Source of the DNA: a bacterium
GTDB taxonomy: Bacteria; SZUA-79; Acidulodesulfobacterales; Acidulodesulfobacteraceae
Length of the DNA stretch: 47,675 bases
Assembly: GCA_027319095.1 (NCBI GenBank)
Contig: DAHVNW010000013.1
Span: forward strand, 1 to 47,675
Direction: 5' to 3'
This document shows positions 8,509 to 36,881 of this stretch, one piece after another (positions within the stretch are counted from its first letter, which is position 1; the number at the start of each line of letters is the position of its first letter). The position numbers were made by a program, and so were the translations under genes. The notes below the pieces were generated by a model. The model had not been told where the DNA came from. It was given only the letters and a program-made list of their open reading frames with translations, and did not search any database.

Positions 8509-9171
8509 CTATTTTAAAGATTTAAGATACCTTGCTATAGTATTAAGCTGCGAAGCGGATATGTGCTTAAATTCCGGCATTATAACAAGATAAGTTTTAC
8601 CGTTGATAGTTGTGGGAACTCCGTACGTAAAATGTACCTTAGGATCTACTATCTGGGTTTCTATCCATGACAGGCTTTTTGTCTTGCCTATATGCGAAAG
8701 GTCAGGTCCTACTTTTCCGCCGACTCCGTCTATGCGGTGGCACGCAATGCAATTATCCTCCCTGAAAAACGCTAATCCTGCAGGAGGTTTAGGATAAGCC
8801 AAGTTAGCCCTCTGATACGGAAAAGATTTAATATATTCGGCTAATTTGTCAACTGCCGAAGGCGGTATAGTTTTTTTAAATCCCGGCATTCTTGCAAAAT
8901 AAACCTTTCCGTCGATGTCCGTTTTCTTCCCTAAAATAAAGTGCGTAGCGGGATTTAATATCTGCGCTTTAATCCATGAAAGGCTTTTTGTTCTTCCGAC
9001 ATTTGAAAGGTCGGGCCCTACGGTTCCGCCTTCATGTCCTAAGGTATGGCAATCTATGCAATAGTATTTTTTAAATAGCCCGGGTCCTGATGCCGATGCA
9101 AAGGCGAAATTCGACGAAACGAAAAAAATAAATGTAAAACAAACGGATGCGATAAAAATAAACTTTTTCAT
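8509..9171 (-). CDS. Periplasmic diheme c-type cytochrome (duplicated domain)
   Basis: A 220-residue exported cytochrome. The signal peptide spans residues 1 to about 26 (ends FAFASA). Two cytochrome c domains follow, each with a heme motif and a downstream methionine likely to be the sixth ligand: CIDCH with MPGFK, then CIACH with MPEFK. The two halves are clearly duplicates, sharing GG-VGPDLS-(V/I)G-TKSLSWI--QI--P--HF. They also resemble the monoheme proteins at 20568 and 20970 and the broken gene at 20164. Likely role: periplasmic electron carrier. GGAGGAAC upstream gives a good ribosome site. Upstream lie a large hairpin (9222-9275) and a copy of the shared bipartite element (9351-9407), so it probably belongs to the same regulon as the d1/molybdoenzyme operon. 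Confidence 0.92.
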   Translation of the reverse strand: MKKFIFIASVCFTFIFFVSSNFAFASASGPGLFKKYYCIDCHTLGHEGGTVGPDLSNVGRTKSLSWIKAQILNPATHFILGKKTDIDGKVYFARMPGFKKTIPPSAVDKLAEYIKSFPYQRANLAYPKPPAGLAFFREDNCIACHRIDGVGGKVGPDLSHIGKTKSLSWIETQIVDPKVHFTYGVPTTINGKTYLVIMPEFKHISASQLNTIARYLKSLK

Positions 9172-9431: not shown

Positions 9432-10091
9432 TTATTTTTTTAGAATTTTAAGTTTTATTATAATAAAATCTACCAGTTCGGATTTCTTTTTAAAACCTAA
9501 TTTTTCCATTCCTCTTAAACGATACGTTTCAACAGTTTTTTCGCTCAAAAAATGCCTTTCCGCAATTTCTTTATTTGTGAAACCGTGCGCTATATCGGTT
9601 ATAACCTCCTGTTCTCGAGAACTTAAGCTGTTCCACAGAAATTCTTCTTCATTCAACTTATCTTTCTTGATTTTAGGCTGTTTATCGTTTATGTAGCTTT
9701 TAACCATCGAAGGGTATATATATTTTTCTCCCCTTGCTACCGTTCTTATGGCATATATCAAATCATAATCCATAGCCTTTTTCACTAAAAAACCGGAAAC
9801 GCCGAGATCAAAACCTTTTTGAATATATAAGGCGTTCCCGTCTATCATCATAATTAATATTTTTGATTCAGACGATAATTTTTTAAACTTTGAAATTAAA
9901 AAAAATCCGTTTATTTCCAAAAAAGATATATCGAGGAGTATGACATCGGGAGCTTTTGATTTTACGAGTTCAAGCGCCGCTAACGAGTCTCCGGCCGTGC
10001 CGATAACCCTTATATCTTCCTGACTATCAAGCAAAGCCTTTAAAGCGGAAAGCAAAATGAAATGGTCATCGACTATGCACACGGTTATCAT
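9432..10091 (-). CDS. LuxR/NarL-family response regulator with an atypical receiver
   Basis: A 219-residue two-component regulator. The N-terminal receiver has the acidic pair Asp8/Asp9 (IVDDH), phosphoacceptor Asp54 (LLDIS) and the conserved lysine (VKKAMDYD). Two usual features are changed: the MP after the phosphoacceptor region is FL, and the switch Thr/Ser (Thr82 in the paralogue at 21514) is Met82. Phosphorylation signalling may therefore be altered. The C-terminal LuxR HTH is LSSREQEV...GFTNKEIAE...SEKTVETYRLRGMEKLG. Its recognition helix is nearly identical to that of the paralogue, so both probably bind the same DNA element. No kinase gene is adjacent. No clear Shine-Dalgarno precedes the ATG. 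It sits between the molybdoenzyme gene and the diheme cytochrome gene. Confidence 0.93.
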   Translation of the reverse strand: MITVCIVDDHFILLSALKALLDSQEDIRVIGTAGDSLAALELVKSKAPDVILLDISFLEINGFFLISKFKKLSSESKILIMMIDGNALYIQKGFDLGVSGFLVKKAMDYDLIYAIRTVARGEKYIYPSMVKSYINDKQPKIKKDKLNEEEFLWNSLSSREQEVITDIAHGFTNKEIAERHFLSEKTVETYRLRGMEKLGFKKKSELVDFIIIKLKILKK

Positions 10092-10231: not shown

Positions 10232-13200
10232 TTATACTTTTTCTATTTTAACCGGCGCGTAATAATAAACCATAGAGCCTCCCACCGGATCGGTTAATAC
10301 CGTAGTCCAGCCGTCTTTAGCGGCTATAGAGTCATCCAGCAGGAACAGGGCGTTAGGATGGACGCCCTGATTCCTTGCAGGGTCGCCGGTATATTTTTTT
10401 CCGTCTATGTACCATTCTCCCGAGCCGTAAAGCCATCTGCCGAATGCGGTTGCCGCCGTAATTACGCCGGGTCTCAACGAAGGCATTATCCTTACCCTGT
10501 GCGTAATACCCTTAGAATAGGTAGGCGATATTACCCTTATAGTATCCCCGCCGGATAAGCCCAGCTTTTTCGCGTCTATTGCGCCTATCTCCCAAAAAGC
10601 GTCCGGCAAAAGTTCCTGCAGCCACGGGTCGGCCATCGTTCTAGACTTGGAATGGATAGGTTGTCTGTGGGTTGAAACCATAAGCGGATATTCCTTTCTC
10701 GAGTATATCTTATCTAAAATTTCGCCCTTCATATTCCTATGCGGCAATAGTATCGTAGTTCCGTTAAATCTTTCGCCCGAAATTGCGTTGTGCGCGGTAG
10801 CCACCTCTTCGTTATATAAATGAACAGGCGTATCCGGCGACCAAAGGTGCGTTACCCATTTCGGCTTTCCCCACGGCAGATACCCTACGTCGTAATCCTC
10901 AAACCTGCCGCCTCTCGAAATAACGTAAGCCGCTTTTTTCCATTCCGAAGGCTTTAGCGCTTTTCCGTGCTTTTTTATATATTCTTTTACGTATTGCATT
11001 TCATACGCATTTGCATCCGGCACAGGCCCTAAATGAATAAACCTCTTTCCTTTCTTTTTTAAAAAAGTTTTACCGTCGTATGCAATGTTAGCCGCCATTT
11101 TAAGATAAAAATCCTCCCTTTCATTTAAATTACCGCCTTCGAGAAATGCATTCTCGCCGAATCCCGGCAATTTAATAGCCTTTGCCACGTCTATCAAAAA
11201 ATTCTCGACGCATATCGGCTTTCCGTCGTTAGTTTTTTCGGTCATAGGTTCTACTATAGGCTGCCTGATCGAAGTCCTGGCGGTAGGGTAAGTCGGAAGA
11301 TTGCCGAGAAAACCCCATCCTTCCAAGTAAGTCGTATCGGGAACTATATAATCCGCATAAGCGGAACTTTCGGAAATTAAAGTGTCGGATGCTATAAATA
11401 ACGGAACTTTACCGGTATCTTTAATCATCCGCATCCAAGGCTTGGTTTCGTCGTTTACGCCTCCCATAGCCGGCATAGACCACGCCGGATTTGCCTCCTG
11501 CTGAAGCATTATCTTTACCGGATACGGATACTGGAAATACGTTCCTCCCCATATCTCCTGCCATATGCCGAAACCGAACGGAAACCAAGGTCTTTGCGCT
11601 GCAAAAGGCGACTCGCCTTTTGCAACTTTTTCCTTATATTCTAAAGTATCTTCATAATACGAGCCCTCTCTCGAAATTTTTACGCCTTTTGCGGGAACGA
11701 ACCCCGGCCATTTGCCTAAATCGTAAGGATAACCGCTTCCGCCCATAATATTAGCGCTTCCCCCGCCGTTAATATATCCTCCCTGCCAGTTTATATTGCC
11801 GACCATAACGTTTAAAAACTGTATCGCCCTGCCGTAATAAAATCCGTTGGTATGCTTTACCGGACCCCTGTAGTAATCCGCAACGGCTTTTTTCCCGTAC
11901 GAGGTAAATTCTTTCGCAAGTTCGGGTATTATTTTCGGCGAAAGTCCGGCTTCGTTTGCATATTCGTCTATGCCGAATTTTTTGATTTCGCTCCATAGCA
12001 TTTGCATGCCGGTCATGCAGTTTACTCCGTTTACGTTAACGGGGGTTAAAGATAAAAATCCGGTCGGCCATAAATTGCCTTTAGTTCCGGTATCGGATAA
12101 AACAGGTTTTCCGGTTGCTTTATCTATGGCGTAAAAAGATTCTCCGCTCTTCAAGAGCTTGGCAAAATCGGGATTGCTTTCGTCAACGACGACAAGATAG
12201 GATGCGTTGGAAAAATTCGGCTCTCCATAGGCATTTGCCGCTTTATGGTTAAGATTCGTAAGGAAATTCTCGTCGTACCTTTTGTTTTCTATTATCCACC
12301 TTAACATGCCCATAGCCAAAGCTCCGTCGCCGCCGGGTTTAACCGGTATATATTTATCGGCATGTGCAACCATATTACCAGCCCTGACGTCTATTACGGT
12401 AACCTTTAGCTTGCCTGATGACGTAGCGGCTACCGTTCTTCTGGCTAAAGTCTGCATGGGAAAATTGGCTTCTAAGTAATTGGCTCCAAAAATCAAAAGA
12501 TGTTCGCAGTTAGGCAAGTCGGGCTTTAGCATATTAGTCCCGGGAAACGTCCTGAACGTCGATACATGATGAGATAAATCGCAGATTGAAACATGGGGCA
12601 ATGCATTTACCGAACCGAGCGCGTTTGCAAACCGGGTTATAAAATTTGCTATGCCTCCCTCTCCTCTGCCCCAGTAAGCCACAAACTGATTGGTTTTAGG
12701 ACCGAAATCGGGATATTTTGAATTTGCCGGTATAAACCTGTTCCTGCCTTCGTTCCAAAGGTGCTTAAAACCTTCGACGAACCTCTTTTCTTCACCGGGA
12801 ACATCCTTAAACAGATACCCGCCGTTTACGACTTCGCTTATCAACTGTTCGTAGGAAATTACCTTAAACTTTCTGGAGCCTCGCTCGTCGACCCTTTTTA
12901 ACGGCATATATACCCTATAAGGGTCGTAAACCGTCTGGGTTCCCGCCGCACCTCTGGGACATGCGGAATGCGCCCCGTCCACATACGGCTTATCCGCCGA
13001 ATAATAGTTTCCGGTATAAACTATGGAGTCTTTTACGGAAGTAGAATATTTTATATTAGGCTCCGTAGTCTGAATATCGTAGGGGTTACCGAAAATATTC
13101 AGAAGCGTTCCGTTAAACATCCTCGTCATTATACCGCAATCGCTGTGGCATTGCTTGCATGTGGAATATTTCACGATTTCGCCCGGCCATGTTTCGGGTC

Positions 13201-13348
13201 TGCACGGAAACGTATATTTACCCTGATATCCCAATAATCCTCCCGCCCATTGCGTTAAACCCGCTCCCGTAGCGACCGCCATAGCTCCGAATGTTCCTAT
13301 TTTAAGAAAATCCCTTCTATTCATTTTATTATTTTTATTCTTTGCCAT
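10232..13348 (-). CDS. Periplasmic molybdopterin oxidoreductase, sulfur/tetrathionate reductase-like catalytic subunit
   Basis: A 1038-residue DMSO-reductase-superfamily enzyme. The N-terminus has a twin-arginine motif (NRRDFLKIG), so the folded enzyme should be exported. An N-terminal [4Fe-4S] motif follows: Cys64, Cys67, Cys71 and Cys130 (STCKQCHSDCGI ... HSACPRG). A probable Mo-coordinating cysteine is Cys256 (VSICDLSHH). Later blocks such as ADYIVPDTTYLEGWG and the C-terminal molybdopterin dinucleotide-binding domain (EIGAIDAKKLGLSGGD) fit the group containing TtrA, SreA/PsrA, ArrA and SrdA. Length and Tat signal favour TtrA-like or SreA-like enzymes, but the oxidised substrate (tetrathionate, sulfur, polysulfide or other) cannot be told from sequence. 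It is the last gene of a six-gene operon, 12 bp after the membrane subunit gene. Confidence 0.9.
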   Translation of the reverse strand: MAKNKNNKMNRRDFLKIGTFGAMAVATGAGLTQWAGGLLGYQGKYTFPCRPETWPGEIVKYSTCKQCHSDCGIMTRMFNGTLLNIFGNPYDIQTTEPNIKYSTSVKDSIVYTGNYYSADKPYVDGAHSACPRGAAGTQTVYDPYRVYMPLKRVDERGSRKFKVISYEQLISEVVNGGYLFKDVPGEEKRFVEGFKHLWNEGRNRFIPANSKYPDFGPKTNQFVAYWGRGEGGIANFITRFANALGSVNALPHVSICDLSHHVSTFRTFPGTNMLKPDLPNCEHLLIFGANYLEANFPMQTLARRTVAATSSGKLKVTVIDVRAGNMVAHADKYIPVKPGGDGALAMGMLRWIIENKRYDENFLTNLNHKAANAYGEPNFSNASYLVVVDESNPDFAKLLKSGESFYAIDKATGKPVLSDTGTKGNLWPTGFLSLTPVNVNGVNCMTGMQMLWSEIKKFGIDEYANEAGLSPKIIPELAKEFTSYGKKAVADYYRGPVKHTNGFYYGRAIQFLNVMVGNINWQGGYINGGGSANIMGGSGYPYDLGKWPGFVPAKGVKISREGSYYEDTLEYKEKVAKGESPFAAQRPWFPFGFGIWQEIWGGTYFQYPYPVKIMLQQEANPAWSMPAMGGVNDETKPWMRMIKDTGKVPLFIASDTLISESSAYADYIVPDTTYLEGWGFLGNLPTYPTARTSIRQPIVEPMTEKTNDGKPICVENFLIDVAKAIKLPGFGENAFLEGGNLNEREDFYLKMAANIAYDGKTFLKKKGKRFIHLGPVPDANAYEMQYVKEYIKKHGKALKPSEWKKAAYVISRGGRFEDYDVGYLPWGKPKWVTHLWSPDTPVHLYNEEVATAHNAISGERFNGTTILLPHRNMKGEILDKIYSRKEYPLMVSTHRQPIHSKSRTMADPWLQELLPDAFWEIGAIDAKKLGLSGGDTIRVISPTYSKGITHRVRIMPSLRPGVITAATAFGRWLYGSGEWYIDGKKYTGDPARNQGVHPNALFLLDDSIAAKDGWTTVLTDPVGGSMVYYYAPVKIEKV

Positions 13349-13360
13349 TATAAATCCTCC

Positions 13361-14635
13361 TTATTTATTGTTATCCGTTTTTATTTCTTCAGTTTCGCGT
13401 TTCGTTCCGTTCCATTCAAACTTGTATTCCGGCTTTGGCGGCACGCTTAATTCTTCGGGGTCATGTTCCCATCCCAAAAAATAACCGAAAATGAATATCA
13501 GGAGAATGCCCATTCCAAAGAGCCCTATGCCCGTTAAATATCCGTCGTAACCTAAAAACGGAATATGTAAAACGGCCAGTCCTTGTCCGATTTTGACAGG
13601 AAGCTGACCGCCTATTACCGTATCAAACCTCATTTCGAATACGCCTACCGTAACGATAAAATCTAAAACTAACGTCCAAACTAACGATCTTCTAATTTTT
13701 TTAAAGATAAGGAATAAAAACGCCGGAATTATAAGTCCAAGCCCTATCTGCAAAACATGGTAATTGAACCATAACGGGCCGTGTCCCGCGAAACTATATA
13801 CGGCGTGCCAGTTGTCGTACACAGCTTTAGAGTTATACCCCCTTACAGAATAGAGCCATTCTATCAAATCGAAAAAAAGGTCCGCAAATATCGCGTAAAC
13901 TAAAGATTTATTAAGAACATCCAATGTATCCGGTTCGACTTTGTTTTTATTCGAAAATAAAGGAAAACCGACGCCGTACAATAAACCTACGAAGGCGATG
14001 CCGGATACGACCGCCGACGCTATAAACATAGGGGGTATGACCGGATCCGACCAAAGCGCCCTTGCCTTTATAGCGCCGAATAAAAATCCGACATAACCGT
14101 GAAAGAGCACGGATAAAATAATTCCAAGAATAGATATAATCCAGAGCGCTTTATGGTCCCTCGAAATACTTTTCTTAGATAAATCCATATTCCCTAACGT
14201 TAGAAGCCGGGACACTTTGCCCCTTATCCCCTTATCTTCGAGAGCCCTTTTAATGTTGTGCTCTCTAAAAAGATAATAAAGTTCAAAAAGAAAGGCTACG
14301 ACGAATATCGTCCATATAATGATAAACATGCCTAAAGGAGAATATGGAAAATGGTCCCTGAAATATAATTCCCATACGGCTCTGGATGGCTGCAACGCAT
14401 CCGCCAGGGGCGCCATTGCCGCAAGTAAAAGCATAGCAAAGCTTGCTATTAAAGAAAGCTGGGAAACGGGCTTAAGCTTTTCTATATTAAAAAGGTGGTA
14501 TAATGCCCCGACTACGAAAGAGCCCGCCAACAGCCCCGAAAGAAACGGGTAAATCACTATCGGAAGCCCCCAGTAAATATTCTCGAGAGTTCCGTAGGTA
14601 CCGTTAATTGAAAGAGGATTCACATATTGAAACAT
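13361..14635 (-). CDS. NrfD/PsrC-family membrane anchor subunit
   Basis: A 424-residue integral membrane protein with about nine to ten hydrophobic segments. The start NPLSINGTYGTLENIYWGLPIVIYPFLSGLLAGSF is typical of NrfD/PsrC/TtrC-type quinol-oxidising (or quinone-reducing) subunits. An acidic and basic C-terminal tail (PKPEYKFEWNGTKRETEEIKTDNNK) is cytoplasmic by prediction. In such complexes this subunit exchanges electrons with the quinone pool and passes them through the Fe-S subunit to the molybdoenzyme. Genes for both partners flank it directly (39 bp upstream, 12 bp downstream) on the same strand, which makes the three-subunit assembly very likely. Confidence 0.9.
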   Translation of the reverse strand: MFQYVNPLSINGTYGTLENIYWGLPIVIYPFLSGLLAGSFVVGALYHLFNIEKLKPVSQLSLIASFAMLLLAAMAPLADALQPSRAVWELYFRDHFPYSPLGMFIIIWTIFVVAFLFELYYLFREHNIKRALEDKGIRGKVSRLLTLGNMDLSKKSISRDHKALWIISILGIILSVLFHGYVGFLFGAIKARALWSDPVIPPMFIASAVVSGIAFVGLLYGVGFPLFSNKNKVEPDTLDVLNKSLVYAIFADLFFDLIEWLYSVRGYNSKAVYDNWHAVYSFAGHGPLWFNYHVLQIGLGLIIPAFLFLIFKKIRRSLVWTLVLDFIVTVGVFEMRFDTVIGGQLPVKIGQGLAVLHIPFLGYDGYLTGIGLFGMGILLIFIFGYFLGWEHDPEELSVPPKPEYKFEWNGTKRETEEIKTDNNK

Positions 14636-14674
14636 AATATAAACTCCTTATTTTAAAAATAATTAAATAATTAC

Positions 14675-15871
14675 TTAACCCGCATAAGGATATTCCCTTT
14701 CTTCCAAATACGGAAGCACGGGTTTTTTGCCAAGTTTTTCATAAGACGTGGTCGTTAGTCCCATCGCATAAGTGTAAACCATTTTAACTTTATCGGGATT
14801 AGTCGGATTCATCAGTTCATCGTCAAAGCCGATATAATAAACTTGCGGGTCGGTACCGAACTCGAGATTTAATCTCGAAGTCCTATGCGTTGCGATTAAC
14901 TTTGATACCTCGCTTTCGGGATCGTTTGTATCCCCGAATTTCATAGCCCTTCCGACGCATGTAGTAACGCATACGGGTAAAAGCGGCGTATAAGACTTTT
15001 CATGCGAAACCGCCGCCCTGCCGGCGCACATATTGCACTTATCTGCCGTATGCTGTATCGGATTTGCAAACCTCATATCGTAAGGACAAGCCTGAACGCA
15101 GGTAAGGCATCCTATGCACAAATCGTAATCTATTTCAACTTGTCCCGTTTGTAACTTATACGTCGCTTTCACGGGACAAACCTCGACGCACGGCGGATGG
15201 TCGCAATGATTGCATGTTCGGGGAAGAAAAACTCTTTTTACGTTAGGAGCGTAATTTCCATCATCCGTTACGACTATACCCATTGCGTCCGGAGCCATTT
15301 CTCCCGTTTCCATAACGTCCACGACCCTCCTGAAAACTCCTAGAGGAACGGTATTTTCGTTTTTGCAGCTAACTACGCAAGCCTGGCATCCTACGCATTT
15401 GTTAATATCTATTACGAAAACAAAATGATGTATCTTAGGTCTTATTTTTTTTATCATGTAAAACTTATCGTGAAAAATCCGCGCATGAAGCGGATTTTGA
15501 ATAGTATTCTGCCAGTGGTCCCAACCGTCTTTTATATACTGGGAGGGGTTCATCCAGCTCATCCACCTGTGATTTTTTAAAGGGCCGGTAGGAACTCCCG
15601 TCCCTTTTTCCGGCGTATTTAAACCGCCGCCTTTTCCTTTAATTTTTTTCAAAGGAGCCGCCGCCAAAACTTCTTTAGATTTAGATAAGCCTAATATTCC
15701 GAAAGCCGACGCCGCGAGTCCTCCCAAACCCAGCATTTTAAGGAACTTTCTTCTGCCGGTTTTTTCGTTATTCTTTGCGTCCCCGCCGGCTTCATCCCTG
15801 ACGCCTGTCTTTTCGGCGTTTTTTTCGTTTTTAATTAAATTTTCGCCTGTTTTTCCTTTGTTTCTCTTCAT
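14675..15871 (-). CDS. Four-cluster ferredoxin-type electron transfer subunit with Tat signal
   Basis: A 398-residue DmsB/TtrB/PsrB-type Fe-S subunit. After a long charged leader (about 40 residues) comes a twin-arginine signal, GRRKFLKMLGLGG, so the subunit is exported with or beside the catalytic subunit. Four cysteine groups are visible: CVGCQACVVSC, CNHCDHPPCVEVCP, CIGCLTCVQACP, and a split CNMC ... CVTTC. Together they fit four [4Fe-4S] clusters. The chain is longer than the usual 190-250 residues because of the leader, an insertion before the first cluster (residues about 75-150) and a C-terminal extension. It transfers electrons between the NrfD-type anchor and the molybdoenzyme. The operon position is between nirF (32 bp upstream) and the anchor gene. 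Confidence 0.92.
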   Translation of the reverse strand: MKRNKGKTGENLIKNEKNAEKTGVRDEAGGDAKNNEKTGRRKFLKMLGLGGLAASAFGILGLSKSKEVLAAAPLKKIKGKGGGLNTPEKGTGVPTGPLKNHRWMSWMNPSQYIKDGWDHWQNTIQNPLHARIFHDKFYMIKKIRPKIHHFVFVIDINKCVGCQACVVSCKNENTVPLGVFRRVVDVMETGEMAPDAMGIVVTDDGNYAPNVKRVFLPRTCNHCDHPPCVEVCPVKATYKLQTGQVEIDYDLCIGCLTCVQACPYDMRFANPIQHTADKCNMCAGRAAVSHEKSYTPLLPVCVTTCVGRAMKFGDTNDPESEVSKLIATHRTSRLNLEFGTDPQVYYIGFDDELMNPTNPDKVKMVYTYAMGLTTTSYEKLGKKPVLPYLEEREYPYAG

Positions 15872-15903
15872 TTAATTCCCCCTGCGTTAATTTTTTTTTA
15901 CGG

Positions 15904-17097
15904 TTATTTATCTAATTTATAAGGCACGCGGAATATTCCGGAAGGACTCCTGACCGGAATTACCGCAACCTCTTTGCCTGTATGGGCGTTAAAGACGTTT
16001 ACGGAATTGCCGAAATAATCCGATGCGTAAATTAATCTGCTATTTCCCGAAAAAGCCATGAACATAATTCTTCTTCCGGCTTTTATGTTTTTTATAACCT
16101 TCAACCCCTTTGCGTCTATATCTATAAGGGTTAAATAGTTATCGGCGGAACCGCTGTAATTGACGGCTATCGTTTTACGGTTCGGAGAAAATATTATAAA
16201 AATAGGATAGCCTATAAGATTAACGGAACGGATTTCCCTTTCGGTTTTTAGGCTGACTACGACTATCTTCTTTTCCCCTACGGCGGGAATATATGCCCCG
16301 CCGTTAAATATCGAATAGATTCCGTAATGGGGTATCTGGCGTGGAAAACTTCCCTTTTCGCCGTAATCAACGATACGGTATTTGAAGTTTTTTAAATTTA
16401 ATACGCCGAACTTTTGACCTATAAGAAAAGCCGCTATGTAATCGTGTCCGGAAACAAGAGCATCTATAGGGAACTTCCCTATTTGCCTTACCTTTTTTAT
16501 AATCTTAAAATTATTCAAATTAACTACCCATATCTGGTTTTTGTCCATAAGCTCGAATATAATATAATTTTTGTAGAACTCTACCCCTATATTTCTCGAG
16601 CCGGTATATATCGTTTTCAATATTTTAAATTCTTTATTAAGGATTACTATATTTTTAGGTTTATAATCCGCAACGGCTATAAGGTTTTTCGACAGGCAAA
16701 AATCTACGGTATCTTTCGATATCTTTTTTTGCAGGACGATTTTACCGGTTGCGGGGTCTATTTTAGAAAGATAGCCGTTTCTGCTTATCGCGTAACCGTA
16801 ACGATTGCCGAAATAGACTATTACGTGCGTTCCGTTCCCTATGTTTTTTATACTTCCAGTCAATCTGCCATGCGATATTACGCCTAAAGAACCGCCTGCC
16901 CTTTCTACTACGTAATACTTTGATGCGAAAACCGGCATACAATAAATTGCCATTAGTAAGGAAATTGCCATAAATAAGACTACCGCCGAAAAGATACAAA
17001 CTATATAAAACAAGCCGGGTCTTCCTGAAAATAATCTCCAGAAACGGAATAAGCCCTCGCCCTCGAACCGCCGTTGCAGATTCTTAAATAATCGCAT
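15904..17097 (-). CDS. nirF: NirF-like heme d1 biosynthesis protein, membrane anchored
   Basis: A 397-residue protein. Residues about 30-60 form one hydrophobic segment (probably an anchor or uncleaved signal), followed by an eight-bladed d1-type propeller. Diagnostic NirF-like blocks are YVVERAGGSLGVI at the start of the propeller, FPIDALVSGHDYI, IPHYGIYSIFNGGAYIPAVG and the ending SPSGIFRVPYK. NirF acts late in heme d1 assembly in denitrifiers. I chose the ATG at 17097 because GGGAGG lies 8 bp before it; a GTG at 17106 in the same frame is too close to that site. This start overlaps the nirJ 3' end by 97 bp in another frame. An ATG near 16971 would avoid the overlap but has a poor ribosome site. 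Confidence 0.85.
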   Translation of the reverse strand: MRLFKNLQRRFEGEGLFRFWRLFSGRPGLFYIVCIFSAVVLFMAISLLMAIYCMPVFASKYYVVERAGGSLGVISHGRLTGSIKNIGNGTHVIVYFGNRYGYAISRNGYLSKIDPATGKIVLQKKISKDTVDFCLSKNLIAVADYKPKNIVILNKEFKILKTIYTGSRNIGVEFYKNYIIFELMDKNQIWVVNLNNFKIIKKVRQIGKFPIDALVSGHDYIAAFLIGQKFGVLNLKNFKYRIVDYGEKGSFPRQIPHYGIYSIFNGGAYIPAVGEKKIVVVSLKTEREIRSVNLIGYPIFIIFSPNRKTIAVNYSGSADNYLTLIDIDAKGLKVIKNIKAGRRIMFMAFSGNSRLIYASDYFGNSVNVFNAHTGKEVAVIPVRSPSGIFRVPYKLDK

Positions 17098-18098
17098 TTT
17101 TCGCACCTCCCTTTTAATTTTCTCGGCTTCTGCCTTAATTCAAAAAATAATTTATCGTTATTTATTATTTCAACAAAATCTCTTTCTTTTATATTTCCGG
17201 CTCTATACTGAAAAAACGGATCCGGCTTGACAAATCCGGAATAATCTATATTTATTATTCTGTCGCCGGATTGGTTCCCTCCCCAATTTAAAATTTTGCT
17301 ATGCATATCTTTATAAAATTCAGGATAAAAGCATTTAAACATAGCAAGCAACAAAATAGCGTCGGTTTCGTTATTACCGGTAACTATACTAACAGGAACG
17401 GCTCTTTTAATATAATTAAATGCAGTTCCTATAATGCATAAAGATATTTCTTTATGAACGGCTTTATTTATTTCTGACATATTGCCGCCTCTGCCTGAAT
17501 AAACTAAATGGGAAATATATACCTTCTTTACGCCTTCCGTTTCCGCCAGTTTAAATATAAATTCTATATCTTTGTAGTTATAAGAAGTGAGGGACATTCT
17601 TAAACCAACGTTTATTCCGTTAGCTTTAAGCATTCTTAAAGATTTGACGGAAGCGCCGTACGCTCCTTCTTTCTGTCTGAATCCGTCGTGAGTTTTTTCG
17701 GTTCCGTCTATGCTGATTCCGACATAATGAAACAGCGATTTTATATCTCCTACATTCCTTTCGTTTATCATGGTACCGTTTGTAGAAAGACTGACGGCAA
17801 AACCTTCTTCTTTAAGAATTTTTGCTATATCGAAAAGATACGGCGACATAAGCGGTTCGCCGCCGGAAAGTATAACGGCTTTTACGCCTGCTTTTTTTAA
17901 AGATTTTACGGTAGATAATACTAATTCCGGCTTTATATTTTCGTCTTTTTCTCTTTTTCCCGATGAAGAATAGCAATGTTGACAGGAAAGATTGCAATCG
18001 TTAGTAATGTTCCATATAAGCATTTTTCCTGTATTGTGCTTACTCGCATGGAAATCGGGGTCTAACGAATTTTTAATATAATCGGTTATCCTTAACAT
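17001..18098 (-). CDS. nirJ: NirJ-like radical SAM heme d1 biosynthesis protein
   Basis: A 365-residue radical SAM enzyme. The cluster motif is CNLSCQHC (Cys35, Cys39, Cys42), inside WNITNDCNLSCQHCYSSSG. The SAM-binding GGEP is in VILSGGEPLM. Many blocks match NirJ of denitrifiers: YVGISIDGTEKTHDGFR, VTGNNETDA, WGGNQSG and NIDYSGFVKPDPFF. The C-terminal cysteine region is GRCEKCDYLRICNGGSRARA ... DPACFI, which holds an auxiliary Fe-S cluster. NirJ replaces two propionate side chains of didecarboxysiroheme by oxo groups on the way to heme d1. It starts 1 bp after the stop of the c-d1-c gene, so the two genes are tightly coupled. No nirE or nirDLGH genes are in this window, so earlier pathway steps must be encoded elsewhere. 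Confidence 0.92.
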   Translation of the reverse strand: MLRITDYIKNSLDPDFHASKHNTGKMLIWNITNDCNLSCQHCYSSSGKREKDENIKPELVLSTVKSLKKAGVKAVILSGGEPLMSPYLFDIAKILKEEGFAVSLSTNGTMINERNVGDIKSLFHYVGISIDGTEKTHDGFRQKEGAYGASVKSLRMLKANGINVGLRMSLTSYNYKDIEFIFKLAETEGVKKVYISHLVYSGRGGNMSEINKAVHKEISLCIIGTAFNYIKRAVPVSIVTGNNETDAILLLAMFKCFYPEFYKDMHSKILNWGGNQSGDRIINIDYSGFVKPDPFFQYRAGNIKERDFVEIINNDKLFFELRQKPRKLKGRCEKCDYLRICNGGSRARAYSVSGDYFQEDPACFI

Positions 18099-18099
18099 T

Positions 18100-19857
18100 T
18101 TAATTTCCGTTCCTCCAAAAATTCCTGTTCCCGGAATCTTTTATAAAAGCTATAAGCGCTTTGATTTCATTCCAGTTAAGATTAAACTTAGGCATGGCGT
18201 TATGCTTATATCCAAGTTTTTTGGAAAACCTTACAGGGTCGGCTATTTGCTCTTTAATTCCCCAGACGTTAAGATGCGACGCTATATAAGAAAAAGAAGG
18301 CCCTATGGACGCAAGCGTCGGATTATGACAACCCCAACAGTATGTAAAATAGACCTCCTCGCCGAGAAGAGCGGCATCGTTCATTCTTTGATAATTCACG
18401 TAATTATATTTGCCTATTACGTCGTCCGCCGGTATCGTTTTTATTACTTTAAGAGAATTCGTCGAGACTATGTCCAGCGCTCCGTGCGCGCCGTAAAGGC
18501 TTATATACGCTAATTTCTCATTGCCGGAAAACTGGGTATGAATAACGATACCTTTATGCTTAAAAAATATCTTTTTAGTATTATAATTATATTTATTAAC
18601 GAGGATACAGGGGTTTGAACTGTCATCTACCCAAAGATATTCGGTATAAGGGTTTGTTTTAACGAAAAAACCCGGGCCTCCCGTATATATGCTTTTTACA
18701 AACTTCCAGTCGTACATTCTCCATATGGAAACGTAAGGAACGTTCAAACTTGTAAGGGCAAAGTAAAATTTTCCCTTGTGAAACCAGAACCCGGCTCCGG
18801 CAGGGTGGGCTATCCCGTATGCCTTATGGCGCCATACAATTTTTTTATCTTTAAGGCTGAAAACATACAGTTCTCCTTTATCGAAAGAGCCTCCTACGGC
18901 ATATTCGTCCAGCGGGTCAACAAAAAAATCCTGAAAAGGAACGGGGATTTTATAATAAGATACGTTTAACGTATCGGTGTTCAATACGCCTATATAGGAC
19001 TTATGCATAAAGGAAAATACGGCTACGTTATTTCTGAACAATCCATAGATTACCGATACTCTATGTTTTAGCGGTATTATTTTTACTGGTTCGAGATTTT
19101 TAGCGCTTAAAATAACTATGGATTTAGGAAGCCAGCAGGCGGCTAAGACGTACCTGCCTCCTTCGGAAAGAGAAATGTTTCTTAGGTAGCGGCAGGCTCT
19201 TACTTTATAGGCAAACCTGCCCGTGTAAAAATCGTATTTGCCTATATACCCTGTATTAGATGGAAGATAAAGGTATCTTCCCGAAGGAGAATATTTTAAC
19301 CCCCCGTGTATATCTCCGAAATTGAATTTATTCAATATCTTCGTTCCTTTCATTATCCAGACCTTTCCGATGCCGCTTACCACGACCGCCATAAGGTTTT
19401 TGACGGCTACAGGTTTGACGGCAATATCGCCTGTATTTGTATTCCCGTATCTAAAAAGGGAGGCTTGAATGTCGTGTTTTGTCCATCTGACATTCGAGGA
19501 CGGTTTTTTTAAATAGCTTATCAATGCGGATAAATTTTTACGGGATAATTCTTTAAACGCAGGCATAGGAATTGGAAATAAGCCTTTTGTTATAATAGTT
19601 TTAAGCCTGCCGTAATGAATACTGCCGATAAACTGAGGAATAAGTGGCGGGGCGGACTTTCCCAGCCTGTGTTCTCCGTGACATACGAAACAGCCGGTTC
19701 GAATATAAATTTTATGCCCTAAAACTTCTTCTGCTACGCCCGCGGCTGGTTTGATTTTAAGAATATTCCGCGCATCCGTCGAAACGGCGGAAGCAACCAA
19801 ATAATATACCGTAAAAACCGAAATTATTGTCAAAAATATAATTTTAAAGAATTTCAT
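18100..19857 (-). CDS. Cytochrome c - heme d1 propeller - cytochrome c protein (NirS/NirN-related)
   Basis: A 585-residue exported protein and first gene of the operon. After a signal/anchor (residues 5-24) comes a cytochrome c domain with CFVCH (Cys56, Cys59, His60) and PMPAF (Met98). The d1-type eight-bladed propeller (about 150-485) keeps the residues expected for heme d1. His184 lies in IHGGLKYSPSGRYLY, equivalent to the d1 axial His of cytochrome cd1. His285 (FMHKSY) and His351 (AHPAGAG) match the two active-site histidines. A further NirS-like block is WLPKSIVILSAKNLEPVKI. A second cytochrome c domain follows, with CWGCH (507-511) and AMPKF (Met555). NirS and NirN have only one cytochrome c domain, so this arrangement is unusual. 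It probably carries two c hemes and one d1 heme in the periplasm. The substrate is unknown and nitrite is not assured. Confidence 0.88.
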   Translation of the reverse strand: MKFFKIIFLTIISVFTVYYLVASAVSTDARNILKIKPAAGVAEEVLGHKIYIRTGCFVCHGEHRLGKSAPPLIPQFIGSIHYGRLKTIITKGLFPIPMPAFKELSRKNLSALISYLKKPSSNVRWTKHDIQASLFRYGNTNTGDIAVKPVAVKNLMAVVVSGIGKVWIMKGTKILNKFNFGDIHGGLKYSPSGRYLYLPSNTGYIGKYDFYTGRFAYKVRACRYLRNISLSEGGRYVLAACWLPKSIVILSAKNLEPVKIIPLKHRVSVIYGLFRNNVAVFSFMHKSYIGVLNTDTLNVSYYKIPVPFQDFFVDPLDEYAVGGSFDKGELYVFSLKDKKIVWRHKAYGIAHPAGAGFWFHKGKFYFALTSLNVPYVSIWRMYDWKFVKSIYTGGPGFFVKTNPYTEYLWVDDSSNPCILVNKYNYNTKKIFFKHKGIVIHTQFSGNEKLAYISLYGAHGALDIVSTNSLKVIKTIPADDVIGKYNYVNYQRMNDAALLGEEVYFTYCWGCHNPTLASIGPSFSYIASHLNVWGIKEQIADPVRFSKKLGYKHNAMPKFNLNWNEIKALIAFIKDSGNRNFWRNGN

Positions 19858-19902
19858 AAGCTAACCTTTAAAATACGTGGCGCGTTAACGTTATTTAATT
19901 CA

Positions 19903-19924
19903 TTGCCCCGCCGAAACGGGGCAA
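19903..19924 (-). promoter_or_regulatory. Leader hairpin upstream of the d1/molybdoenzyme operon
   Basis: Perfect 8-bp GC-rich stem (TTGCCCCG / CGGGGCAA) with loop CCGAAA, about 45 bp before the start codon of the c-d1-c gene. It lies between the start codon and operator copy B, so it is probably in the transcribed leader, as is the hairpin before the diheme cytochrome gene. A role in mRNA stability or translation is inferred. Confidence 0.45.
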
Positions 19925-19991
19925 AGGAGGTAAAATTTAAACTTACATTTTATAGTTTTAAGTGTAATACGCCTTTTATTTATTTTAAATA

Positions 19992-20049
19992 GGGGAAAAA
20001 CTGATTTTTGTAAGATAAATTTTGAAATTAAATGTAGGGGAAAAACCTA
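19992..20049 (-). promoter_or_regulatory. Bipartite operator-like element, copy B
   Basis: Part 1 (19992-20012) reads on the minus strand TACAAAAATCAG followed by TTTTTCCCC. Part 2 (20035-20049) is TAGG-N7-CCTA. The parts start 43 bp apart. Compared with copy A both arms of the palindrome changed together (TAAG/CTTA to TAGG/CCTA), which supports a real two-fold binding site. It lies about 135 bp before the six-gene operon. Confidence 0.72.
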
Positions 20050-20086
20050 TATCGTATTATTCATCAAAAAATTACGGCAAGATAAT

Positions 20087-20114
20087 AAAATAGCGGGAAA
20101 TTTCCCGCTATTTT
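20087..20114. terminator. Palindromic terminator after the small cytochrome cluster
   Basis: A 28-bp perfect palindrome (core TAGCGGGAAATTTCCCGCTA) is flanked by A-runs and T-runs on both sides. It lies about 50 bp past the end of the broken cytochrome gene (20164) and before operator copy B. It therefore separates the small-cytochrome transcription unit from the d1 operon. Confidence 0.75.
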
Positions 20115-20163
20115 ATTGAAATTAAAAAAATTTATAATTTTATAATTTAGATGTCTCTAAAGT

Positions 20164-20532
20164 TTATTTTTGCGATTCTAAATAATTTGCTAACGCGTTA
20201 AGCTCCGTCCCGCTCAGCATATTTTTGAACGCCGGCATCATAATTATATAATCCTTCCCGTTTATAACGGCGCTGCCTCACGGATTAAAATAACTATCAG
20301 GATTTTTAATAAAATCTTTTAGCTATATAACACTTTTTTCGGCTCCTATATTGCTCAGGTTAGGACCTGCCTTTCCGCCGGCGCCGTTTATCGTGTGACA
20401 GTTTATGCACCCTTTGGATTTAAAAACAGCTCTTCCGGATATAGCAAAAACCGCATTGCATCCATATAAAATCAAGAAAAAAATAAATATGCCCGATAAT
20501 GCAATTTTATATCTTTTCATTTCCATATCCAT
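20164..20532 (-). pseudogene. Monoheme c-type cytochrome interrupted by two in-frame stop codons
   Basis: The reading frame codes for a signal peptide, a CINCH heme motif and the family block GGKAGPNLSNIG. It then meets TAG at 20325-20323 and TGA at 20280-20278, yet continues in the same frame to a normal family ending (IMMPAF ... ELNALANYLESQK) and a TAA at 20166. The TAG stands exactly where all four related domains in this window have Trp (SWI, LWI, KWL), so it is one base from TGG. No frameshift is present. Either this is a young pseudogene, or the stops are read through, or the assembly has errors. GGAGG at 20536-20540 is better spaced for the ATG at 20526 than for 20532. It is the last member of the cytochrome cluster starting at 21308. 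Confidence 0.85.
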
Positions 20533-20567
20533 ATACCTCCGCTTATTAATAGCAAGTTCTTTTATAG

Positions 20568-20918
20568 TTATTTTAAAGATTTTAAATATCCGGCGAGTTT
20601 ATTAAGATTATTAGCGCTTATTTTTTTATTTGCCGGCATAATAGATTCATATATCTTTCCGTGAAAAATAACAAAAGAGTTGGGCGTAAAAAAATTTAAT
20701 TTAGGATTTCTTATCTGGCGCCTAATCCATAAATACGACCTGATTTTGCCGATGGCGGAAAGATTCGGACCCATCGTTCCTCCTTTTTTATTAATGGTAT
20801 GGCATAAAATACATTCTTCTTTCTTAAATAATTGCTTGCCTGCAATAGCATTGCTATTAGGAGGATTTAAAGCCACAGCCGCAATTATAAGAATTATCGA
20901 CAACAGCAACTTTTTCAT
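20568..20918 (-). CDS. Monoheme c-type cytochrome
   Basis: A 116-residue exported cytochrome. The signal peptide spans residues 1 to about 24 (LLLSIILIIAAVAL ... SNAIA). The heme motif is CILCH, followed by HTINKKGGTMGPNLSAIGKI. The likely axial Met is in SIMPANKK, and the protein ends AGYLKSLK. It shares the pattern GPNLS-x-G-(x)-W-x-x-x-QI-x-x-P with the neighbouring cytochromes and both halves of the diheme protein at 8509. Small cytochromes of this kind shuttle electrons in the periplasm. The upstream gene ends 51 bp away, so it is probably co-transcribed from the promoter region at operator copy C. Confidence 0.9.
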   Translation of the reverse strand: MKKLLLSIILIIAAVALNPPNSNAIAGKQLFKKEECILCHTINKKGGTMGPNLSAIGKIRSYLWIRRQIRNPKLNFFTPNSFVIFHGKIYESIMPANKKISANNLNKLAGYLKSLK

Positions 20919-20969: not shown

Positions 20970-21308
20970 TTATTTTAACGATTCGAGATATTGGGCAACC
21001 TCGTTAAGTCGTTTCGCATTTAAATTAAACTGAGGCATTATGCTCCCCGGAAAATGCTTGCCGGGATCGGCAATCTGCACCTTTAACCACTTGACCGAAT
21101 GTCCGCTTAAGCCCTCTTTAGAGAGGTTCGGACCGACGGAACCTCCGGAACCGTTTATCGTATGACAACTCAGGCAACCTTTAGCTTTAATAATTTTCAT
21201 AGCTTTTGCAGAATTAGGCGTCATAGCTTTTGCTCCGTTAATGGCGAAAATAAAAACGGCAAATAAAAAAACCGAGAAGATTAAAGCCGTTATCTTGAAA
21301 TTTTTCAT
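20970..21308 (-). CDS. Monoheme c-type cytochrome
   Basis: A 112-residue exported cytochrome and the first gene of the small-cytochrome cluster. The signal peptide spans residues 1 to about 28 (ALIFSVFLFAVFIFAINGAKA). The heme motif is CLSCH followed by HTINGSGGSVGPNLSKEG. The probable sixth ligand is the Met in GSIMPQFN, and it ends AQYLESLK. It lacks the insertion before MPxF that the relatives have (a (I/H)(D/N/H)GK-Y segment), so it is the most compact member. AGGAGG just upstream supports the start. Operator copy C lies about 127 bp upstream. Role inferred: periplasmic electron carrier for the redox system encoded next to it. Confidence 0.92.
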   Translation of the reverse strand: MKNFKITALIFSVFLFAVFIFAINGAKAMTPNSAKAMKIIKAKGCLSCHTINGSGGSVGPNLSKEGLSGHSVKWLKVQIADPGKHFPGSIMPQFNLNAKRLNEVAQYLESLK

Positions 21309-21513: not shown

Positions 21514-22170
21514 CTATTTCTTCAAAATTTTCAAATTAAAGTAAATTAAATCTATAAGTTGTGATTTGCTTGAAAAACCTAATTTTTCCATGCCCCTCGA
21601 ACGATACGTCGCTACGGTTTTTTCGCTTAAAAAATGCTTTTCTGCAATTTCTTTATTTGTAAAACCTTGCGCAACTCCTATCATGACCTCTTTTTCCCGC
21701 TTGCTTAAAGCTTCCCATAGCGTTTCTTCCCTGCTAAAAACATCATCGGAAGCGCTGCTTTTATTTGCAATAAAATCCTCGAGCATGGAAGGATGCACAT
21801 ACGTTTCCCCTCTGGCAACAGTTTTTATTGCGTAAACTAAATCGTAATCCATTGCCTTTTTTACTAAAAACCCGGAAGCTCCGGCTTCAAGCACTTTTTG
21901 CATATACTGTTTATCTTCGAACATGGTTAATATTAGTATTTTTGAGTTAGGCGAAATTTTTTTGATTTTTGGAATTAAGTCGATTCCGCTTATTTTCGGC
22001 ATGGATATATCGAGTAGAACTACATCCGGAGTTTTTACTTTAATGAGTTCGACCGCATGTAAAGCATCGTTTGTCGTTCCCGAAACGTTGATGCCCTCTT
22101 GTGTATCTAAAAATATTTTTAAGGTAGAAAGCAATATGGAGTGGTCGTCAACTATTACTACCGTTATCAT
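21514..22170 (-). CDS. LuxR/NarL-family response regulator
   Basis: A 218-residue regulator, 23 bp after the histidine kinase gene and clearly its partner. The receiver is canonical: Asp8/Asp9, phosphoacceptor Asp54 in LLDISMP, Thr82 in ILTMFED and the lysine in FLVKKAMDYD. The C-terminal HTH is LSKREKEV...GFTNKEIAE...SEKTVATYRSRGMEKLG. The protein is a close paralogue of the regulator at 9432, differing mainly in receiver switch residues. An AAGGGGG ribosome site precedes the ATG. Given the shared recognition helix and the three bipartite elements before cytochrome units, it likely activates or represses those units when phosphorylated. The site assignment is inference. Confidence 0.95.
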   Translation of the reverse strand: MITVVIVDDHSILLSTLKIFLDTQEGINVSGTTNDALHAVELIKVKTPDVVLLDISMPKISGIDLIPKIKKISPNSKILILTMFEDKQYMQKVLEAGASGFLVKKAMDYDLVYAIKTVARGETYVHPSMLEDFIANKSSASDDVFSREETLWEALSKREKEVMIGVAQGFTNKEIAEKHFLSEKTVATYRSRGMEKLGFSSKSQLIDLIYFNLKILKK

Positions 22171-22193: not shown

Positions 22194-23654
22194 TTAATTA
22201 ACAATATCGGGAATATAGAATTTGACCATCGTCCCTAAATTTTTTTCGGATTCTACGGTCAGTTCTCCGCCGAACAGTTTTGCCCTTTCTTTCATGCCGT
22301 CTATGCCGAAATGCTCATAATCTCCTTCACAGCATCCGAAGCCTTTTCCGTTATCCTCGACTATGCCCCTTATTTCCCCTTTATATCTATCGAGTATTAT
22401 GGTGATGCGATTGGCGCAGGCATGGCGGATAACATTCAGCACTGCTTCCTGAATTATTCTATATATATTTACTTCCAAATTTTTTTCCAATGCGACTTCT
22501 CCAAAATTTAACGGATAAAAATCTATTTTTATGTTTGGATTATTTTTAACGATGTCTGTAATATATTGCTTTACAGCATTAATTAATCCAACCTCGTCAA
22601 GCAGGCTTGGTCTTAAATTTTTGACCATATCGCGTATAAGATTGAACCCTTCCGTTAAATCGTCCCTTATCTGACGGGTTTTATTTTTAACTTCGGCTTC
22701 GTCGCCGGCGCAATCCTCAAGCATCTTAAGCCTTATTTTTAATGAGGAAAGAAATTGTCCGAAGCTGTCATGCAGTCTTCGCGATATTTTTCCCCTCTCC
22801 TCTTCGTGCGCGTTAATTATTTTTTTTATAAAATCTACCCTTAGCTCTTCGTTTTTTATTCTCTCCTGCTCTACGTCTTTTAATATTAAAGCCATTTCTG
22901 TAAACGAATTTGAAAGTTTTCCTATTTCGTCGTCTCCTTTAGTGGTTATTTGGACGTCGTAATCGCCGGATTTAATCTTCTGAACGGCCATATGCAGTTT
23001 TACGACCGGAGTTAAGAACCACCACGCTATAATCTTAAATATTAAATATATAAAAACAAAAGTAAATATTAAAATAAAAATAATATTTTTTAAAAAAATC
23101 GGCGATTCTTCTTTAAAAAAGGAATCTTTCATACGTTTTAAAGAAATTCCGACTATTATAGTCCCAAGTTTGCCCTTGGATATCGGAAAAGACGCATCAA
23201 TAATTTTCCCGTAAACGTCGTTACTATATTTAACTATCGATATGCCGTTCCGATTATTGTCGGTTTGATGGACGTTGATCGCAATATTCGGATAAAAGCC
23301 CTTATGAAGGTCATAAGCAATAATTTGACCTTTTTTATTTCTATAAAATATATATAGAATATTTTTATTATATTTAATCTCTTTCTTTAACAATAAATTT
23401 AGCTTACCGTAATTTTTACCGGCAATAAAACTTGCCGAACTTTCCTGAATATGCCTTACTATAACCATACTCATATATTCCGCGTCATGGGAAATTTCGC
23501 CGTTATAAAAAGATGATATAAAATATATAATTATAAACGCTAAAAAAATGGTGGTAAGTATAGCAAGCCCGATTAATTTAATCCTTATCGAGATATTAAT
23601 AAATTTTTTCCAAATGTTTATTATAATATCCGGCGCATTTAACTTCATTTTCAC
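22194..23654 (-). CDS. NarX/LiaS-type sensor histidine kinase with periplasmic sensor domain
   Basis: A 486-residue membrane kinase. It has TM1 (about 27-48), a periplasmic domain of about 135 residues (sCache-like, with LYIFYRNKKGQIIAYD and GKLGTIIVGI), TM2 (about 187-210), HAMP (about 212-262), a HisKA_3 dimerisation domain with phospho-acceptor His295 in RRLHDSFGQFLSS, and a HATPase domain (EAVLNVIRHA, VEDNGKGF, FGIDGMKERA). The periplasmic part contains no cysteine pair or heme motif, so the signal is not evident. It starts at GTG 23654, overlapping the MFS gene by 4 bp; a downstream ATG at 23648 is an alternative. It is followed by its response regulator. It probably senses a periplasmic small molecule relevant to the cytochrome and molybdoenzyme genes (inference). 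Confidence 0.94.
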   Translation of the reverse strand: MKMKLNAPDIIINIWKKFINISIRIKLIGLAILTTIFLAFIIIYFISSFYNGEISHDAEYMSMVIVRHIQESSASFIAGKNYGKLNLLLKKEIKYNKNILYIFYRNKKGQIIAYDLHKGFYPNIAINVHQTDNNRNGISIVKYSNDVYGKIIDASFPISKGKLGTIIVGISLKRMKDSFFKEESPIFLKNIIFILIFTFVFIYLIFKIIAWWFLTPVVKLHMAVQKIKSGDYDVQITTKGDDEIGKLSNSFTEMALILKDVEQERIKNEELRVDFIKKIINAHEEERGKISRRLHDSFGQFLSSLKIRLKMLEDCAGDEAEVKNKTRQIRDDLTEGFNLIRDMVKNLRPSLLDEVGLINAVKQYITDIVKNNPNIKIDFYPLNFGEVALEKNLEVNIYRIIQEAVLNVIRHACANRITIILDRYKGEIRGIVEDNGKGFGCCEGDYEHFGIDGMKERAKLFGGELTVESEKNLGTMVKFYIPDIVN

Positions 23655-35900: not shown

Positions 35901-36128
35901 TTCGTCGAGAATTGCAAATTTTACGGTAGTAGAACCGATATCTATTCCCAAATACAGTTTCTTATCGAAATTTTTAACGCTTTGCCATTTCCAGCGCGCA
36001 TCCAAGGCATGCTCCGATAAACGCTTGCTTCCGATATAGTCTTCGGCATCTCCTTCACTGCAGGACGGCGTGCGCCCCTCAACGCGTGCCGAAGATGAAG
36101 ATATGTGAAGTTTCTTTGAAACTTTCAT
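32994..36128 (-). CDS. Large two-domain CoA-enzyme activase (BadF/HgdC type) with C-terminal DUF2229-like region
   Basis: A 1044-residue protein with two consecutive activase ATPase domains. The first has LYLGIDIGSTTVK, EMGGQDSK, CAAGTGSFLDQQ and GRCTVFAKSDM. The second has YIGVDTGSVSTNV, EIGGQDSKYI, CAAGTGSFLEEQ and DRCTVFMESDL. Each keeps the phosphate loops and the pair of Fe-S cysteines of the HgdC family. The C-terminal third (about 690-1044) begins with CLKCSNLC and includes IPLCLETYDLFPFYNEFWTGVGF, the part related to the dehydratase subunit. I start it at ATG 36128, which overlaps the MoaDE stop by one base (TAATG) and has AGAGG before it. Residues 11 to about 50 are an unusual, GC-richer insert ahead of the conserved start. 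Substrate unknown. Confidence 0.88.
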   Translation of the reverse strand: MKVSKKLHISSSSARVEGRTPSCSEGDAEDYIGSKRLSEHALDARWKWQSVKNFDKKLYLGIDIGSTTVKFAILDEDLKVVKKDYIRSNGESIKTAYNVLKRIFDEFSRDSFAGIGATGSGSRTVGEVLGIPNINELVAQTEAVKYFYPDVKTIIEMGGQDSKFLMLNKNKENGQIFLEDFGLNDLCAAGTGSFLDQQAERLHINIENEFGKLALESKNPSKIAGRCTVFAKSDMIHLQQVSTPIQDIVAGLCYAVARTFIGTIAKGKKFEKPVIFQGGVAFNLGMVRAFKDILELKDNELIIPEHHTVMSAIGIAIISRNEKNFKFNGLGPLKEFIEKNKLTGRYRDRLKGYYDDGIGGNNSGLDYLTALKIRSGNTVPAYIGVDTGSVSTNVVLLDEDKKLLIKKYKKTNGKPIEVVRDTLYEIYLELKNFNIDVLVKGVCATGSGRYLIGDYIGADIVKNEITAQAAASIFIDKDVDTVFEIGGQDSKYIRIKNGVVIDFEMNKACAAGTGSFLEEQAQKLDIDIIKEFSDKAFNASTSCNLGDRCTVFMESDLVSHQQKGANKDQLIAGLAYSIVENYLNKVVLGKPIGDRILFQGGVALNKAVVSAFETILCKKIIVPENNEVTGAIGSALIAFQNKKGSKFVGFDLRDRKYTNESFECLKCSNLCDVNKVAVERELPRYYGARCDIFEIDKSKAKKGENFFKYRREILLDGYNAGENEADYSKLRVGIPLCLETYDLFPFYNEFWTGVGFNVILSEETNRPIINSSNMLSVTDTCFPVKVVTGHVKNLIDKKVDAVFLPALVNREKNHDFQGNTYQCPYIQGVPYIAKSLLEFGKIQVISPEIRLFDDKRDYDLTVSGIFKYLKGYGISRKKIANAFESALNKQRDFYKKLKIKGKEILEKYGDITVLVGRPYNTQDDGINLAISNKISSLGITVIPMDFLDIEEVSIYGEHDNMFWHSGHKILSAAKIIMENPRLNAVYLTNYSCGPDSFIKTFFADYMKYKPYLEIEIDEHNADAGYITRLEAFFDSIKDFKPENI

Positions 36129-36811: not shown

Positions 36812-36881
36812 ATTTTAATTTTGTTAGGTATTTCATTTGAAATCGGATACTTTTCCTTTTATTTATTTTTATAGTTACAAT

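Follow-up and report, generated by a model that had tools for sequence, protein, structure and literature searches.

In the literature read, the one role described for heme d1 is that of cofactor in cytochrome cd1 nitrite reductase (PMC13168839), which raises the question of what it would do in an operon that lacks nirS and joins genes for late heme d1 biosynthesis to those of a tetrathionate reductase-type molybdoenzyme complex. Such an operon lies on the stretch of 47,675 nucleotides analysed here (the window; G+C 37%), which corresponds to contig C44 of a MAG of 1.78 Mb (G000; 97% complete, 168 contigs). Size, G+C, the presence of dsrA and the grouping of the related genomes in one family all agree with Ca. 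Acidulodesulfobacterales, an acid-mine-drainage order (PMC6776010), as the probable source. The original prediction, made from the window alone, held that heme d1 serves a reaction other than that of NirS at this locus, perhaps with a sulfur compound. The comparison set comprised 30 genomes of the phylum, all of them fragmented MAGs from one family.

All six open reading frames were found on the minus strand and closely packed (Table 1). Domain searches assigned PF13442, PF02239 and PF00034 to the c-d1-c protein and identified the other five products as a radical SAM/SPASM protein, a stand-alone d1 propeller, an Fe-S subunit, an NrfD protein and a molybdopterin enzyme, in agreement with the original prediction; as it had also stated, no nor, nirE or nirDLGH gene is present within the window. 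Here and in relatives, nirJ shares about 100 bases with the listed nirF frame, whose GTG start lies within nirJ; the true nirF start is uncertain. A search of relatives for the same gene set, which the prediction had proposed as a check, recovered the identical six-gene order in 10 other genomes from one family and at least three genera (11/11 carriers; the L021 contig breaks off inside ttrA), mostly with the same flanking small cytochromes, histidine kinase and response regulators. Thus, the arrangement is not due to chance and the operon is a stable unit. In the window, two in-frame stops interrupt a third gene for a small cytochrome c, located upstream of nirNC; intact counterparts of 120–124 aa occupy the same place in L021, L022 and L023. 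Only two genomes encode an extra radical SAM protein immediately upstream of nirNC (L028, 15117-16223; L030, 15802-16860).

Table 1. Genes of the operon and neighbouring features in the window.
Feature	Coordinates	Strand	Length	Description
di-heme cytochrome c	8509..9171	minus		conserved neighbour
LuxR-type response regulator	9432..10091	minus		directly downstream of ttrA
ttrA-like	10232..13348	minus	1038 aa	molybdopterin catalytic subunit, Tat-exported
NrfD/TtrC-like	13361..14635	minus	424 aa	membrane anchor, quinone-interacting
ttrB-like	14675..15871	minus	398 aa	4Fe-4S subunit, Tat-exported
nirF	15904..17106	minus	400 aa	stand-alone d1 propeller, exported N-terminus
nirJ	17001..18098	minus	365 aa	radical SAM/SPASM protein
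nirNC	18100..19857	minus	585 aa	NirN-type c-d1 protein with C-terminal NirC-like cytochrome c
gap upstream of nirNC	19858..20567	minus		holds the broken third small cytochrome c gene
small mono-heme cytochrome c	20568..20918	minus		exported
small mono-heme cytochrome c	20970..21308	minus		exported
response regulator	21514..22170	minus		adjoins histidine kinase
histidine kinase	22194..23654	minus		membrane protein (HAMP, HisKA_3)

Judged by its sequence, modelled fold, active-site residues and phylogeny, the c-d1-c protein belongs to the NirN type and not to the NirS type: it is a predicted dihydro-heme d1 dehydrogenase that ends in a NirC-like cytochrome c domain. It carries two heme motifs (C56-x2-C59-H60 and C507-x2-C510-H511), scored 161 bits against NirN of P. 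aeruginosa (6rtd) and 46 bits against NirS in a phmmer search of the PDB, and gave an AlphaFold model (mean pLDDT of 88) for which Foldseek returned NirN as the best PDB match (E 7e-36) and NirS as the second. The equivalents of the NirN d1-pocket residues, computed from chain 6rtd, are H184, H351, H440 and Y484, which are invariant in 37 aligned NirN(C) proteins and align with what we take to be His147, His323, His417 and Tyr461 in NirN numbering. NirS binds nitrite through His327 and His369 (P. aeruginosa numbering; PMC7278500). The first of these lies in an FLHDGG motif that was present in every NirS compared; it is missing from all 10 aligned proteins, its equivalent being Q or K, while the equivalent of the second is present as H351. 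In the tree, NirNC fell outside NirS, the branch of which had a support of 100. Residues, tree and fold together rule out NirNC as a NirS.

For the C-terminal domain we use the term NirC-like only, since PDB searches with it were unspecific, returning general cytochromes c without recognising P. aeruginosa NirC. At L163, a locus of another genome, the gene immediately preceding nirJ encodes a stand-alone cytochrome that shares 39% identity with this domain. In heme d1 synthesis, NirC and NirF act together to introduce the keto groups, and NirN forms the final double bond (PMC13168839); fusing NirN to NirC would thus bring two late steps together in one protein.

The assignments of NirJ and NirF in the original prediction were borne out. 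NirJ has a CxxxCxxC motif (C35/C39/C42), and its best NCBIfam model was TIGR04051 at 358 bits, under the cut-off of 515 bits that no genome among the 30 of the phylum reached. In the tree it was nested within the NirJ proteins of nirS operons, apart from AhbC, and it can be ruled out as the AHB enzyme AhbC, as true AhbC and AhbD are encoded on contig C55 and form a separate clade. Histidines, an arginine and a lysine are essential in NirF (PMC13168839); matched to P. aeruginosa by alignment rather than from a numbered source, these correspond to H94 and H260, invariant in 20 NirF proteins, R171, which is R or K, and K115, which is conserved within the lineage and variable elsewhere.

The original prediction had regarded absence of nirE and nirDL from complete genomes as evidence against its own reading. 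That argument does not hold, as the AHB/siroheme route can provide the precursors of heme d1. Contig C55 groups AhbC, which exceeds its cut-off, AhbD, which narrowly misses its own, a SUMT-HemD fusion and a probable hemC/hemA, and a siroheme decarboxylase frame, of which the domain tested was AhbB-like, was found in 26/30 genomes of the phylum, though not in the window's own MAG (97% complete). The fusion in this genome and the decarboxylase in relatives mean that the lack of nirE and nirDL(GH) is no objection, and exclude an incomplete pathway on that ground; judging from these genes, didecarboxysiroheme, the substrate of NirJ, is likely available to the cell.

A PF02239 search over the 30 genomes did not find NirS, the only matches being NirNC, NirF and propellers of low similarity; NirS was thus absent in all 11 carriers, six of which have a completeness of 91% or more (G000, G013, G015, G023, G011 and G027). 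A search of the Cu-oxidase family over the same genomes found no NirK-type multicopper protein, leaving no copper nitrite reductase as a substitute for NirS. The dN/dS ratios were about 0.08–0.13 for NirNC, 0.09–0.16 for NirJ and 0.16–0.24 for NirF, which together with the unbroken d1 pocket argues against decay and indicates that the three genes are in use. The window's genome (G000) has two copies of dsrA (L245 and L246, on C168 and C108), one of which carries an in-frame TAG as assembled.

Outside the lineage, this trio is tied to nirS. NirNC matches were found in 52/136 genomes of the phylum to which the Aquificaceae match (L041) belongs, where NirS lay directly upstream at 38 of the 40 loci read, the remaining two beginning at a contig end; five loci from other groups likewise had NirS directly upstream. 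Combined, nirS preceded the trio at 43/43 outside loci with upstream sequence (Aquificota and others), the fullest order being nirS-nirN(C)-nirJ-nirF-nirE-nirDL. The domain layout given for the c-d1-c protein in the original prediction was correct, but by its sequence the protein is not a free-standing new cd1 reductase, being rather a NirN-NirC fusion that elsewhere trails nirS as a protein of d1 biosynthesis. In the window lineage, nirS, nirE and nirDL are absent from the operon and the trio lies between the small cytochromes and ttrB-nrfD-ttrA. Since NirJ and NirNC of the lineage each form one clade, nested among relatives from NirS operons and with the same sister pair (G416/G418), the simplest reading of the trees would be a single gain by transfer, together with loss of nirS, nirE and nirDL from the unit. 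One NirS from a large-genome group (f128; L155, 4374-6743) has 789 aa and three CxxCH motifs, and thus additional cytochrome segments.

The three remaining genes had been predicted to encode a complex of the sulfur/tetrathionate reductase type. TtrA was the best NCBIfam model for the catalytic subunit (NF011567, 555 bits over the whole length) and TtrB the best for the Fe-S subunit, but the curated cut-offs were not reached (1750 for NF011567; the Fe-S subunit was far under its own). The catalytic subunit retains the 4Fe-4S cysteines and a candidate Mo ligand, C256. Homologous ttrB-nrfD-ttrA operons free of d1 genes also occur in the phylum; a TorD-type chaperone accompanies them, and some additionally have a phosphonate-type binding protein next to a kinase pair. 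Some genomes hold both kinds of ttr operon. TtrABC therefore does not need d1, and d1 is an addition to one ttr copy rather than a requirement of the complex. Only five residues, all minor, mark the d1-linked TtrA copies, and these give no clue to function. Near the TorD-type gene, ttr operons also encode an exported-looking protein of about 540 aa (L122, 9474-11090; L124, 13929-15524; L125, 4418-6112), a possible clue to the substrate; the one tested had no Pfam match. Elsewhere in the window (36128-37406) are a MoaD-MoaE fusion and a MoaB/MogA-type molybdenum cofactor gene.

Loss of NirS with retention of the late d1 genes implies either a second heme d1 protein or a biosynthetic enzyme that has taken on that role. 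In the scheme that we favour, an Aquificota-type nirS operon would have become a NirS-less d1 assembly line (NirJ, NirF and the NirN/NirC fusion) joined to a TtrBCA-type operon. AHB enzymes would decarboxylate siroheme, NirJ would then act in the cytoplasm and NirF with the NirC-like domain in the periplasm, and the NirN domain would complete the d1-type heme last. With no NirS as recipient, NirNC would most likely keep this heme as a working d1 protein and exchange electrons with the periplasmic TtrABC-like complex via the co-encoded small cytochromes, a reading to which we assign a probability of roughly 0.45. Four elements of this scheme are inferred: synthesis of true heme d1, its retention by NirNC, cooperation of NirNC with TtrABC, and the substrate. 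The proposal that heme d1 serves a reaction not of the NirS type was strengthened by the operonic link to a TtrABC-type complex across the lineage and by the absence of NirS and NirK from the phylum genomes, whereas a role in sulfur chemistry is suggested by the ttr neighbours. It is a more doubtful step to suppose that the fusion has become a second type of d1 enzyme, with a c-d1-c layout and acting together with a TtrABC-type sulfur-compound complex, which would be the first use of d1 outside nitrite reduction.

Nine positions set NirNC of the lineage apart from all 27 other NirN(C) proteins in the alignment, and three of them (P352, G354 and F359) follow the distal His351 within 8 residues. 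In this small sample and chosen post hoc, the clustering of changes near the pocket gave a Fisher P of 0.002 for His351 alone and 0.04 for all four residues. Likewise noted post hoc, a switch from HLAS to HPAG at the distal histidine might be expected if the pocket had taken on a new task. To our knowledge, no NirN acts as a terminal enzyme. NirN is known as a biosynthetic protein that hands d1 to NirS (PMC3694632, PMC13168839), which counts against NirNC as the final holder of the heme. The ttr copies free of d1 genes and the missing decarboxylase frame in the window's MAG also weigh against the favoured scheme.

The main alternative is that NirNC with d1 is a weak nitrite reductase or binds NO or nitrite for detoxification, with a quinol NO reductase removing NO and the ttr genes merely co-regulated. 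Nitrite reduction is the sole established chemistry of heme d1. Contig C55 does encode a quinol NO reductase, which scored 596 bits against 3ayf; its gene, that of a cytochrome c and that of a ScdA/RIC-type hemerythrin protein form a locus close to the AHB heme genes (L130, 348-4362) that is probably for NO defence or detoxification. The original prediction had named nor and denitrification genes as evidence against it; this was found in part, as the reductase is present, but on another contig and in a genome with no NirS. The reductase was more common in d1 carriers than in other genomes (7/11 compared to 3/19, Fisher P = 0.015), but co-occurrence within the genus was not significant (P = 0.13) and the 99% complete G027 has d1 genes and no such reductase. 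Moreover, it lies outside the operon, whereas the ttr genes are always inside, and the nitrite-binding His327 is missing from all 10 aligned proteins. We consider this alternative unlikely.

NirNC might instead have stayed biosynthetic and pass a d1-type heme to an unrecognised protein other than NirS. Its catalytic NirN residues are all intact, as would be expected if the dehydrogenase step matters, and NirN does pass d1 to NirS (PMC3694632). However, within the operon only NirNC and NirF have a d1-type domain, and other PF02239 matches in the genome are weak propellers, with the C83 family also present in relatives that lack the trio, so that such an acceptor seems rather improbable. Although the MAGs are fragmented and the trio clearly descends from nirS operons, a missed NirS or a relic of a lost denitrification operon is nearly refuted, because NirS adjoins the trio everywhere else and would have to have been missed 11 times, and because the genes are under purifying selection in an order kept across genera.

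That NirNC may retain the heme as a working d1 protein is the reading that we prefer. The individual parts of the operon all belong to known families or are closely related to them, and what is new within the literature searched is a NirS-less d1 assembly line in a Ttr-type operon; text searches, which covered few subscription papers, gave no report of d1 genes without nirS or with tetrathionate. Late d1 genes that are under selection without NirS, kept across a whole lineage, allow a second job of heme d1 to be tested directly, on specified genes and a probable partner complex. They also caution against taking nirN, nirJ or nirF in a metagenome as evidence of denitrification.

Compared to known systems, the window resembles each in part. 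NirNC shares its fold and active-site residues with P. aeruginosa NirN (PDB 6RTD/6RTE), which has HLGS rather than HPAG after the distal histidine, has no C-terminal cytochrome domain and has NirS as acceptor. AhbC and AhbD of the AHB pathway, which the window's genome also encodes and which are related to NirJ as radical SAM proteins, differ from it in clade and contig and are present with or without the d1 operon. Tetrathionate reductase TtrABC is matched in the best family for the catalytic and Fe-S subunits, the NrfD-type anchor and the adjoining two-component system, but the TtrA-like catalytic subunit of the window scores far below the curated cut-off and is joined to a d1 operon. The Aquificota operons (L205-L244) have the same trio, in the same order and with the same NirN-NirC fusion; they have nirS directly upstream, mostly nirE/nirDL downstream and, in some, a heme-copper-type gene nearby, whereas the window operon has none of these and carries ttrB-nrfD-ttrA instead.
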